Notes under the pieces: model-generated
What the model was told of the DNA's origin: nothing
The model's input: the letters and a program-made list of their open reading frames with translations, nothing else
The model's database searches: none
Part shown: positions 40,526 through 43,028 of the stretch, one piece after another
How the letters are laid out: each line of letters begins with the position of its first letter
How positions within the stretch are numbered: the stretch's first letter is position 1
Position numbers and translations under genes: made by a program
Source of the DNA: Oleiharenicola lentus
GTDB taxonomy: Bacteria > Verrucomicrobiota > Verrucomicrobiia > Opitutales > Opitutaceae
Direction: 5' to 3'
DNA length: 64,000 nt
NCBI RefSeq assembly: GCF_004118375.1
Contig: NZ_SDHX01000001.1
Span: forward strand, 3,103,693 to 3,167,692

Positions 40526-41797
40526 TCAGGCCCCGAGAACGCAGCGTTCCACGAAACGATTGCGGAACTTGCCGGTGGGATCGAAGCGACGAACGAGGTC
40601 GCTAAAATCACGCCAGCGCGGGTAAACCTCGGCGAGTCGCTCGGCGGACATGGCGAACAGCTTGCCGAGATGCGGGCGGGCGCCGAAGGGTGCCAGCGCA
40701 TTTTCCAGCACGGGCAGGAACGGCTCGATCCCGACCCACTTCTTCTGCCAGTTGAAATGTATGCCGACCGCATCCTCCCCGTAGGCGGAGCTCAGCCAGA
40801 GATCGTCGGCGCGGATGGTGCGGATTTCCGACAGCCCCAAAATTGGTGCCAGTTCCTGCCGTAGCGCCAACACCGCCCGGATGGCGGAAACGGCATGGCG
40901 GCGCGGGATGAAATACTCGCTCTGCAACTCGTTGCCCAGTCCGGTGGGATCGTGGAGTTCGTAGTGCGGCAGGCGCTCGTGCCAGATGCCCGGCTTGGCA
41001 AACGGCGTGAGCGTGCGGTCCGTGGGCGGCGCACCGGAGGGTTGGGCGGATGCCAGAGCCGCCCCAAAGATCCGGTCGGGCACGCGCTCGGGAGTCAGGT
41101 TCGGCACGCGCCGCTTCACCCACATCGTGTCCACCCAGTCGTGCTGCCAGGTCGGAAACAGGCTCACGCTGTCGCCCGCGGCGGTGATCTCGTCGAAATG
41201 CGCGAATACGTCGGCGAAGGGCAGCCGCTCATAGTTGTCCTGCTGCACCAGATAGGCCGGTTCCAAGTCGAGCGTCAGGCGCGTGACCACGCCGAGCGCG
41301 CCGAGGTTGACGACCGCGCCGCGGAACGTGTCGCCGTCGCGCTCGCGGGTCAGTTCGACAAGTTCGCCCGCAGCATTCACGAACTCCATGCCGACCACCG
41401 CCGTCGCAAGATTGCCGAATGCGTTACCGGATCCGTGCGTGGCCGTGGTCACCGCACCGATGACGGTGATGTGTTTCAGCGAAGCCAGGTTCGGCAGGGC
41501 AAAACCGGCCGCCTGCAACTGCGGGCAGAGCGCCTCGTAGGTCATCCCCGCGTGGATGACCGCCCGGCGGCGGACTGCATCGATCGTAACCGGGACATCC
41601 AGGTGACCGAGCCAGAGCATATCACCGGTCGTGTCGGCGATGTCGTTGAAACAGTGCCGCGAGCCGATGACGCGCACCTGCGCGGCGTCGCGCACGAGAG
41701 CCTGCACTTGGGGCACGGAGGTGGGCTGGTGAAAACGCGCGGCGCGGTAGTCAAGGTGGCCGGACCAGTTGTGCCGGTGCCAATCGGGGAGTTTCAT
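40526..41797 (-). CDS. FAD-linked alditol/xylitol oxidase-like protein
   Basis: 423 residues of the vanillyl-alcohol-oxidase flavoprotein superfamily. The N-terminal FAD-binding part has VIGSRHCFNDIADTTGDM, in which His48 aligns with the histidine that carries covalent FAD in alditol oxidase (AldO), and the VTTATHGSGNAFGNLA loop. The C-terminal part has the substrate-cap pattern ending RFDPTGKFRNRFV. AldO-type enzymes oxidise sugar alcohols at the terminal carbon and release H2O2. The ATG at 41797 (MKLPDWHRHNWSGHLDY) fits the family; an in-frame start at 41905 would add 36 residues without similarity. Substrate assignment is inference. Confidence 0.82.
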   Translation of the reverse strand: MKLPDWHRHNWSGHLDYRAARFHQPTSVPQVQALVRDAAQVRVIGSRHCFNDIADTTGDMLWLGHLDVPVTIDAVRRRAVIHAGMTYEALCPQLQAAGFALPNLASLKHITVIGAVTTATHGSGNAFGNLATAVVGMEFVNAAGELVELTRERDGDTFRGAVVNLGALGVVTRLTLDLEPAYLVQQDNYERLPFADVFAHFDEITAAGDSVSLFPTWQHDWVDTMWVKRRVPNLTPERVPDRIFGAALASAQPSGAPPTDRTLTPFAKPGIWHERLPHYELHDPTGLGNELQSEYFIPRRHAVSAIRAVLALRQELAPILGLSEIRTIRADDLWLSSAYGEDAVGIHFNWQKKWVGIEPFLPVLENALAPFGARPHLGKLFAMSAERLAEVYPRWRDFSDLVRRFDPTGKFRNRFVERCVLGA

Positions 41798-41874
41798 GCA
41801 GCGGAAAACATCCTCATCTGTCTCCCCTACGCCCCGGACCGCAAGTGCGCAAAGGGCGGCCGTTCGTCGAACAT

Positions 41875-41916
41875 GTGAATAACCCGCGAGCAAACGCGCG
41901 GGCACAAGTTATTCAC
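41875..41916. promoter_or_regulatory. Interrupted inverted repeat upstream of the flavoenzyme gene
   Basis: GTGAATAA and TTATTCAC match perfectly as outer arms and CCCGCG/CGCGGG as inner arms, with a 6-base insertion (CACAAG) on the right side. It lies about 80 bases before the flavoenzyme start and about 120 bases before the candidate structured RNA. It could be an operator or the end of a divergent transcript. Confidence 0.4.
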
Positions 41917-42039
41917 CGTATCCGCGGAGCAAAATCCACCCAGCCGGCGTGAATAAGATGGGAGGAAGAACCCCGTGACTTTCGCCCGGGGCGGATGCAT
42001 CTTTTCACCGTTCCTTGATAGAACAGTCGCAGCACGGCG

Positions 42040-42868
42040 GCATGAAAAAACCGACGGGAGCGCGACTGGGATAATCCCGGGCAACCGGGGAAAGGAGCAC
42101 GGCAACTGGTGCCGGGCTCCCCTCTGCGGCGCGAGCCGCATGCAGGCATATGTCACCAGTTCCTCTGGCCGGGGTCGCACCCGGTCCAGCAATGCGAACA
42201 TGGAACTGTGCGGCGAGGCGCGAACTTAGAAACCGCGTCCGAGCCGGGTCAGATCCGGGGTCAGTTTCAGGCCCCGCGTCCATGCAGTTACCCAGAGGGT
42301 TGTGGTTGCTACTGTATCACCAGGACGTTGTGCAGTGCTCCGGTGGGTCCACCCCACCAAAAGGCCCGGCCCGCAAGGCTGGGCGCGAAACGGGCGCGGC
42401 ACGACGGGGAGCGGGCGAGTCTGGCAAAGCTCGCAAAACCTCCTCCTTGGGGCGGCGCGAAAACCGCGTCACCCAACTGCAAATCGAAAGCAACCTGAGA
42501 GGTAAGAGGTCAGACCCGTTACACGGGGCCAACGCCCGGCCAAAAGCCGGGGCCGTCCCCGTGGCAAGGTGCTGGCGCGAAATGCACTGTTGCAGGCGTG
42601 CCAACACCCGTCCGGCGAGCGAGTCATCGGCAGATGACGCCGAACCGGGCGTAGAGGCCTCACTCGACAAATTCCGGAGCAGAAATGGCCGGAACGGTCC
42701 CGCTATGAGACCGAAACCTGCGCCTGCCGCGTAGAGTAGCGTCGGGGAGCACACGGCCCGCGAAAGCGAGGCGCCCAACGTTGTGCGACTGGGAAAGAGC
42801 GCGTGGCGAGCGCCCACCCCCAAAATCTGGCCCGGTCACCGCAAGGTGGCCGGGCCTCTTTGCTTTTA
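42040..42868 (+). ncRNA. Candidate large structured non-coding RNA
   Basis: This 1.2-kb gap between the flavoenzyme and plsC has no credible gene but holds many stable plus-strand hairpins: TGCGGC/GCCGCA closed by a GCGA tetraloop (42125-42140), GGAGC...GGCTCC containing GGCA/GGTGCC (42094-42120), TGGCCGGG/CCCGGTCCA (42166-42188), GGTGGG/CCCACC (42342-42358), an 8-bp stem with a GCAA loop (42364-42384), CCCG/CGGG (42515-42527), CCCGGC/GCCGGG (42535-42551), GTCATC/GATGAC (42623-42638), and GTC..GCACA/TGTGC..GAC enclosing CGC-GAAA-GCG (42741-42789). It ends in an intrinsic terminator. GNRA loops and terminator agree on the plus strand. I see no RNase P, tmRNA or SRP signature. The 5' end is not defined by a clear promoter. 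Confidence 0.55.
42829..42868 (+). terminator. Intrinsic terminator at the end of the candidate RNA
   Basis: A 12-bp stem GGCCCGGTCACC/GGTGGCCGGGCC (one G-U pair) with a GCAA tetraloop is followed by TCTTTGCTTTTA. Orientation is plus. With no coding gene directly upstream on this strand, it must end a non-coding transcript. Confidence 0.8.
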
Positions 42869-42882
42869 TAGAGACCCCTTTT

Positions 42883-42944
42883 CAGCGCGCCGGGCCGGCG
42901 TGTGATACCCGGAACCTGCGGCTTTACCCCTGCCCGGCGCGCTG
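42883..42944. promoter_or_regulatory. 13-bp inverted repeat before the phospholipid operon
   Basis: CAGCGCGCCGGGC is repeated as its exact reverse complement GCCCGGCGCGCTG, separated by 36 bases. It lies between the terminator of the candidate RNA and the plsC start. As RNA it would form a strong stem in the plsC leader; as DNA it could be an operator pair. Confidence 0.5.
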
Positions 42945-43028
42945 ACTGTCTCTCCCGCGAGCTCGGATCGCCGCCAGGCAGGCAGACCGTTGACTCCCCT
43001 GCCCCGCCCGGTCAGCAATGGCGCGCCC

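Follow-up and report, generated by a model that had tools for sequence, protein, structure and literature searches.

In the window, the 64,000-nucleotide stretch of Oleiharenicola lentus DNA analyzed here, hrpB and a gene for an FAD-linked oxidase lie on the minus strand. They are followed on the plus strand by a gene for MISL RNA, genes for a PlsC-type acyltransferase, a CdsA-type cytidylyltransferase and a CDP-alcohol phosphatidyltransferase, then an ORF that matches nothing in Pfam, and typA. The oxidase gene (40526-41905) separates hrpB from MISL. The original prediction held that a gene-free stretch of this region encodes a folded RNA. No recognizable gene is indeed present, and the two ORFs tested within the RNA stretch had no match in a Pfam search.

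In an Rfam covariance-model scan the window scored 516.9 bits for RF03079 (MISL RNA), whose curated cut-off is 274.6 (E 6.3e-156). No other Rfam family reaches its gathering threshold anywhere in the window; weak matches to Guanidine-II and Cobalamin inside the region fell under their own cut-offs and were set aside. The stretch is thus a large folded RNA gene and an ordinary member of the known class MISL, for which the Rfam annotation of type is only 'Gene; sRNA'. The RNA had been suggested to fit no known class, a suggestion said to be refutable by a significant match to one; the full-length RF03079 match therefore refutes it. The window copy has the same helices and conserved single-stranded words as RF03079, but the Rfam model, which begins at 42069, includes neither the boxA-like motif nor P0, an additional helix of the window leader (Table 1).

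Table 1. Features of the MISL locus and its flanks, in window coordinates
Feature	Position	Strand	Basis or remark
DnaA-box-like site TTATTCACA	41874..41882	-	family-wide enrichment
DnaA-box-like site TTATTCACC	41909..41917	+	family-wide enrichment
DnaA-box-like site TTATTCACG	41948..41956	-	sequence match
GTGACTTT, possible -35 region	41975..41982	+	assigned by eye; a sigma-70 scan gave no match
boxA-like motif GTTCCTTGATAGAAC	42010..42024	+	5' leader of MISL
P0 helix	42024-42030 with 42062-42068 (42024..42068)	+	directly before Rfam position 1
MISL RNA	42069..42814	+	full-length RF03079 alignment, model 1-751, not cut off
CACCCCC, conserved word	42815..42821	+	immediately 3' of Rfam end; 3' flanks and alignment
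Intrinsic terminator	42829..42866	+	12-pair stem 42829-42856, GCAA loop, T-rich tail

Base pairing and the two ends of the RNA

The hairpins of the original prediction are real: the plus strand of 42004-42862 is more stable than 20 of 20 dinucleotide shuffles (z -3.82), and 162 of the 174 mapped Rfam pairs are standard base pairs in the window. GNRA loops can be read at the places where they had been proposed (GCGA near 42131, GCAA near 42373, GAAA at 42762). The nested long-range stem stood in part. Pairing of 42749-42753 with the 42782 side is an Rfam helix (helix 26 of the alignment described below; 95.4% of cells paired), but the proposed extension at 42741-42743 is absent from the model and sits in a word, GCGTCGGG, that is present in all 57 MISL copies.

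Compensatory changes in homologues, for which the original prediction had proposed to look, were found in an alignment of 39 of the 57 MISL copies in hand at that stage; 11 outgroup copies and seven family copies (G018b, G001b, G011, G008, G007, G010, G002) were omitted. The 193 pairs scored are those of the Rfam structure together with the P0 helix and the terminator, the latter two having been added in this analysis. Both-side changes occur in 118 of these pairs (shuffled, 70.2 ± 3.7) and in 730 cells (shuffled, 223), a comparison in which kinship among the sequences can by itself outdo shuffles. Overall, 89.4% of cells are paired, falling to 36.6-41.1% when partners are slid by 1-3 columns; this contrast is biased toward the real pairs because the pairs derive from the window sequence itself. 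Helices 4 (66.7% of cells paired) and 22 (59.7%) are weaker, and helices 2, 18 and 27, being invariant in the alignment, are neither supported nor refuted. Over these 39 sequences, then, pairs are maintained by compensatory change in homologues, as membership of MISL requires. Covariance model, homologues and compensatory changes agree with the predicted large plus-strand RNA gene with its own terminator.

Two terminator-like sites, one of them the stem at 42829-42856, occur in 41800-43000. Since shuffles lead one to expect 1.7, the pattern taken by itself does not exceed chance. The stem (helix 30) covaries, however: 11 of its 12 pairs have changed on both sides somewhere and 99.4% of cells are paired, so the terminator with a GCAA loop that had been predicted is real. 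The conserved word between the Rfam end and the terminator is widely kept in the form CACYCCC, also outside the window's family.

At the other end, the P0 helix, which is absent from the Rfam model, spans the gap from the boxA-like motif to model position 1. A stem of at least six pairs was found in 73 of 97 leaders (75%); the figure was 33% with a 3' side borrowed from a different leader and 10% with a shuffled one. This survey measured 97 of 98 unique leaders, placed by a motif looser than that of the 108-locus count given below, and a few may be misplaced. The arms differ by lineage: the window, for example, has CAGTCGC/GCGACTG, whereas G091 has CAGAGGT/ACCTCTG and G392 has GAGTGCG/CGCGCTC. 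Within the family P0 (helix 1 of the 39-sequence alignment) has both-side changes in five of seven pairs, with 89.4% of cells paired; its innermost pair is open in 22 of the 39 sequences.

The boxA-like leader word

The conserved MISL unit begins about 60 nt ahead of the Rfam model start. The RNA is present where it had been predicted, but the unit is longer than the proposed start at 42040, the boxA-like motif beginning at 42010. A leader word is common to MISL 5' flanks, and its core ends 29-147 nt (mostly 48-51 nt) before the Rfam start. After removal of 15 duplicates and 14 loci without a full 5' flank, 137 loci gave 108 unique ones. Of these, 97 carry the pattern [AG]NTC[ACT]TTGAN[AG]GAA and 11 lack it. 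It occurs in none of 2729 control stretches (200 bp each, taken from these contigs) and none of 57 stretches just downstream. The looser core TC[ACT]TTGAN[AG] is found at 103 of the 108 loci against 55 of the 2729 controls, and the five loci that miss it carry close variants, for example GTTCTTTGGAAG or GTCCCTTGATAG. In the genome to which the window belongs, 42010-42024 is the sole copy within one mismatch of TTCYTTGAYAGAAC.

The word resembles the boxA of rRNA (rrn) operons in other MISL-bearing lineages, the window's own family lying outside this comparison. G149 has one rrn word about 170 nt ahead of 16S, GATCTTTGATA, and a second about 100 nt ahead of 23S, GTTCTTTGACA; in G392 the word is GCTCTTTGACA, between a tRNA and 23S. 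These come from the three readable ones of nine 5S regions, two of the three being in G392; five of the remainder have N in the rRNA part and one is too short. Five more MISL-bearing genomes have similar words ahead of 16S, after spacer tRNAs (where 23S is presumed to come next), or both. In the genome of L114 the 16S-leader word GCTCATTGAAA shares an A variant with the MISL word GTTCATTGAAA. The genomes of L145 and L170 speak against a strict match: their MISL motif (TCATTGAAA) is one or two bases away from the boxA of the 16S leader (TCTTTGAAA, TCTTTGAGA), and an A in MISL corresponds to a T in the rrn word. For a group other than Verrucomicrobiota, the gamma-proteobacteria, an excerpt of PMC5725501 gives the boxA consensus as GYTCTTTAANA.

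By eye, a small hairpin (e.g. ATTCCTTCGGGAAT) precedes the boxA-like word on its 5' side in L127, L132, L135, L140, L143 and G351. This arrangement matches the boxB-boxA order of rRNA leaders.

Is the word a boxA or simply a hairpin? It could be read as a stem (GUUC, a 7-nt loop NUUGANA, GAAC) with a role in RNA processing or protein binding. GTTC[TC]TTGANAGAAC, with both arms, occurs in 45 of 57 loci, and in Verrucomicrobiales-type leaders the hairpin is longer (CAGTTC-ATTGAAA-GAACTG). We nevertheless consider this reading unlikely. The arms are lost while GATCTTTGACAGAA is kept in Puniceicoccaceae-type leaders (L127, L135, L140, L143) and in a Haloferula copy (G351), and it is the loop word that resembles the rrn boxA of MISL-bearing genomes.

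Several known systems invite comparison. The rRNA operon leader, a site of Nus-factor antitermination, has a boxA, which the MISL word resembles, before a long untranslated folded RNA, but MISL is no rRNA, and P0 is a local hairpin rather than a leader-trailer helix around the RNA. In CRISPR arrays, according to an excerpt of PMC7862264 that cites Stringer 2020, boxA stands, like the boxA-like word of MISL, before a long non-coding transcript that is not rRNA; MISL differs from these in being a single structured RNA with no repeat array. OLE, ROOL and GOLLD are, like MISL, large multi-helix bacterial RNAs (PMC12286853), but they are Rfam families other than MISL, the sole family matched in the window; that paper does not contain the term MISL. 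MISL RNA serves as an example in a chemical-mapping study. Our literature search found no published function for MISL RNA and no publication for RF03079 and related phrases or for boxA with NusB in Verrucomicrobia. As judged from the literature searched and the Rfam model alone, the boxA-like motif and P0 are new for MISL.

Distribution, neighbors and upstream sites

Among 95 relatives, 46 carry MISL (43 above the cut-off), as do 31 of 387 genomes sampled from the phylum (28 above the cut-off). Both counts include the window's own genome, and none of the 14 control genomes of either survey gave a match. Both surveys used stricter filters, at the cost of weak matches. There are at least 119 MISL stretches in named genomes. 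Among the 80 loci listed, every title is that of a Verrucomicrobiota taxon (Opitutaceae, Lacunisphaera, Pedosphaera, Akkermansia, Haloferula and Puniceicoccaceae are represented), and all 80 match a profile made from 57 MISL copies.

Three genomes (G001, G018 and G403) have two copies each. The second copies (L055, L054 and L056, respectively) retain the boxA-like word with small changes and have no DnaA-box-like sites. An ORF near G001b resembles a REP-type transposase; among the nearest ORFs, inspected by eye, no mobile gene is common to the second copies.

Neither the phage nor the plasmid collection gave a match to the window copy, and carriage by phages or plasmids as a mobile large RNA was rejected on these grounds. 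One scan of viral contigs yielded a single contig (L052), two more yielded three each, with L052 again in one of them, and another yielded none; the five other contigs have no match above any Rfam cut-off. Positions 1-485 of L052 (2347 nt, from a viral collection) match MISL from model position 144 with 254.5 bits, just below 274.6; this part is cut at its 5' end, and by eye the match is good to about 485. Positions 743-2026 encode an ssRNA-phage maturation protein (PF03863, E 7.1e-28). As ssRNA phages are not known to have a DNA stage, the contig should derive from an RNA library. It would then be an assembly chimera in such a library or a product of RNA recombination, and either way hints at transcription of MISL.

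What of the neighboring genes? In wide contexts from the window's family an HrpB cluster is present in 20 of 29 and a TypA-type cluster in 26 of 29. By eye, and ignoring small overlapping ORFs, hrpB adjoins MISL in 17 of the 29; at least one member of the TypA-type cluster, that in G403a, looks like LepA. Such proximity could mean that MISL is the RNA partner of the HrpB helicase or the TypA GTPase, but we think this very improbable. Outside the family the neighbor genes vary and neither cluster appears in any of 11 contexts, four of them shorter than 13 kb; moreover, HrpB or an HrpA-type paralog is found in 79 of the 95 relatives, many of them without MISL, and is absent from the MISL-bearing G068 and G086. 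The outside-family contexts and the spread of HrpB rule out partnership as a general rule, and the proximity looks like shared ancestry.

Upstream of the leader, sites of the form [TA]T[AG]TNCACN (TTATNCAC-type) are enriched. At least two lie within 140 bp in 68 of 98 loci against 1 of 3926 controls, and at least one in 85 of 98 against 124 of 3926; the 13 leaders that have none include those of the three second copies at other loci, G018b, G001b and G403a. Recurrent distances between sites are 33, 11 and 35 bp. The search pattern itself fixes most bases, so that the site count and not the base table is the evidence. We take these sites to resemble DnaA boxes (TTATNCACA). The window has three sites within one mismatch of the DnaA-box-like pattern, and the presence of at least two TTATNCACA-type sites near the putative promoter is what a DnaA-controlled promoter would be expected to show. 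A similar pair lies upstream of dnaA in the same genome, in which TTATNCACM shows no genome-wide enrichment (46 sites versus 62 for the reversed pattern). Seven of 103 leaders, all from outside the window's family, have a promoter-like pattern TTGAC..TA ahead of the motif, compared with 2 of 2729 control stretches; a consensus promoter scan of 41800-43000 found none.

The TTATNCACM sites upstream of MISL, and the similar pair ahead of dnaA, could also suggest that MISL is an oriC element whose transcript aids initiation. GC skew does change sign across MISL in an origin-like direction in G086 (-0.023 to +0.065) and, barely, in G285. It flips slightly in the non-origin direction in G003, however, and its sign is unchanged in 34 of 37 contexts, in a local test with flanks of about 7 kb. 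MISL and dnaA are 75 kb apart in G000. With contigs taken as circular, the gap is about 1.1-2.2 Mb in G003, G023, G040, G346 and G392, and it reaches about 2.5 Mb in G033. Mainly these distances, with GC skew also against it, rule out origin linkage as a general rule, and we give the idea almost no credence. Equally implausible is that MISL is a cis-acting leader of the acyltransferase gene, which lies on the same strand 175 bp downstream but is separated from MISL by the terminator with its covarying stem, and whose place is taken by other genes among relatives.

How MISL RNA may be made, and what it may mean

The reading that we favor, with good confidence, is that of a stand-alone MISL RNA gene whose transcription would be antiterminated by Nus factors, a step to which the leader word points. 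Transcription would begin just upstream of 42010, with promoter activity perhaps set by a DnaA-like protein. NusB-S10 would bind boxA in the nascent RNA and make RNA polymerase processive and Rho-resistant across some 800 nt of untranslated RNA, until intrinsic termination at 42829-42866 ends the transcript. The finished RNA might then work in trans, as a structural RNA or in an RNP, being useful yet dispensable. The patchy spread of MISL suggests dispensability, and its changing neighbor genes suggest action in trans.

More tentatively, and with less likelihood than not by a wide measure, MISL may have an rRNA-like transcription program of its own, in which boxA and the P0 hairpin recruit the Nus machinery and the DnaA sites couple the promoter to the replication state.

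The leader offers a concrete clue to how MISL RNA is made. Because the motif and P0 extend the defined transcript, the longer unit is the proper one for expressing, imaging or deleting MISL, and the patchy spread (46 of 95 relatives) offers natural absences for comparison. The motif also allows a direct test of whether Nus factors act on a long non-coding transcript beyond rRNA and CRISPR arrays. Should the rRNA-like program prove true, MISL would be among the few RNAs besides rRNA and CRISPR transcripts to have a dedicated boxA, and Verrucomicrobiota would have in it an RNA machine coupled to growth or replication.
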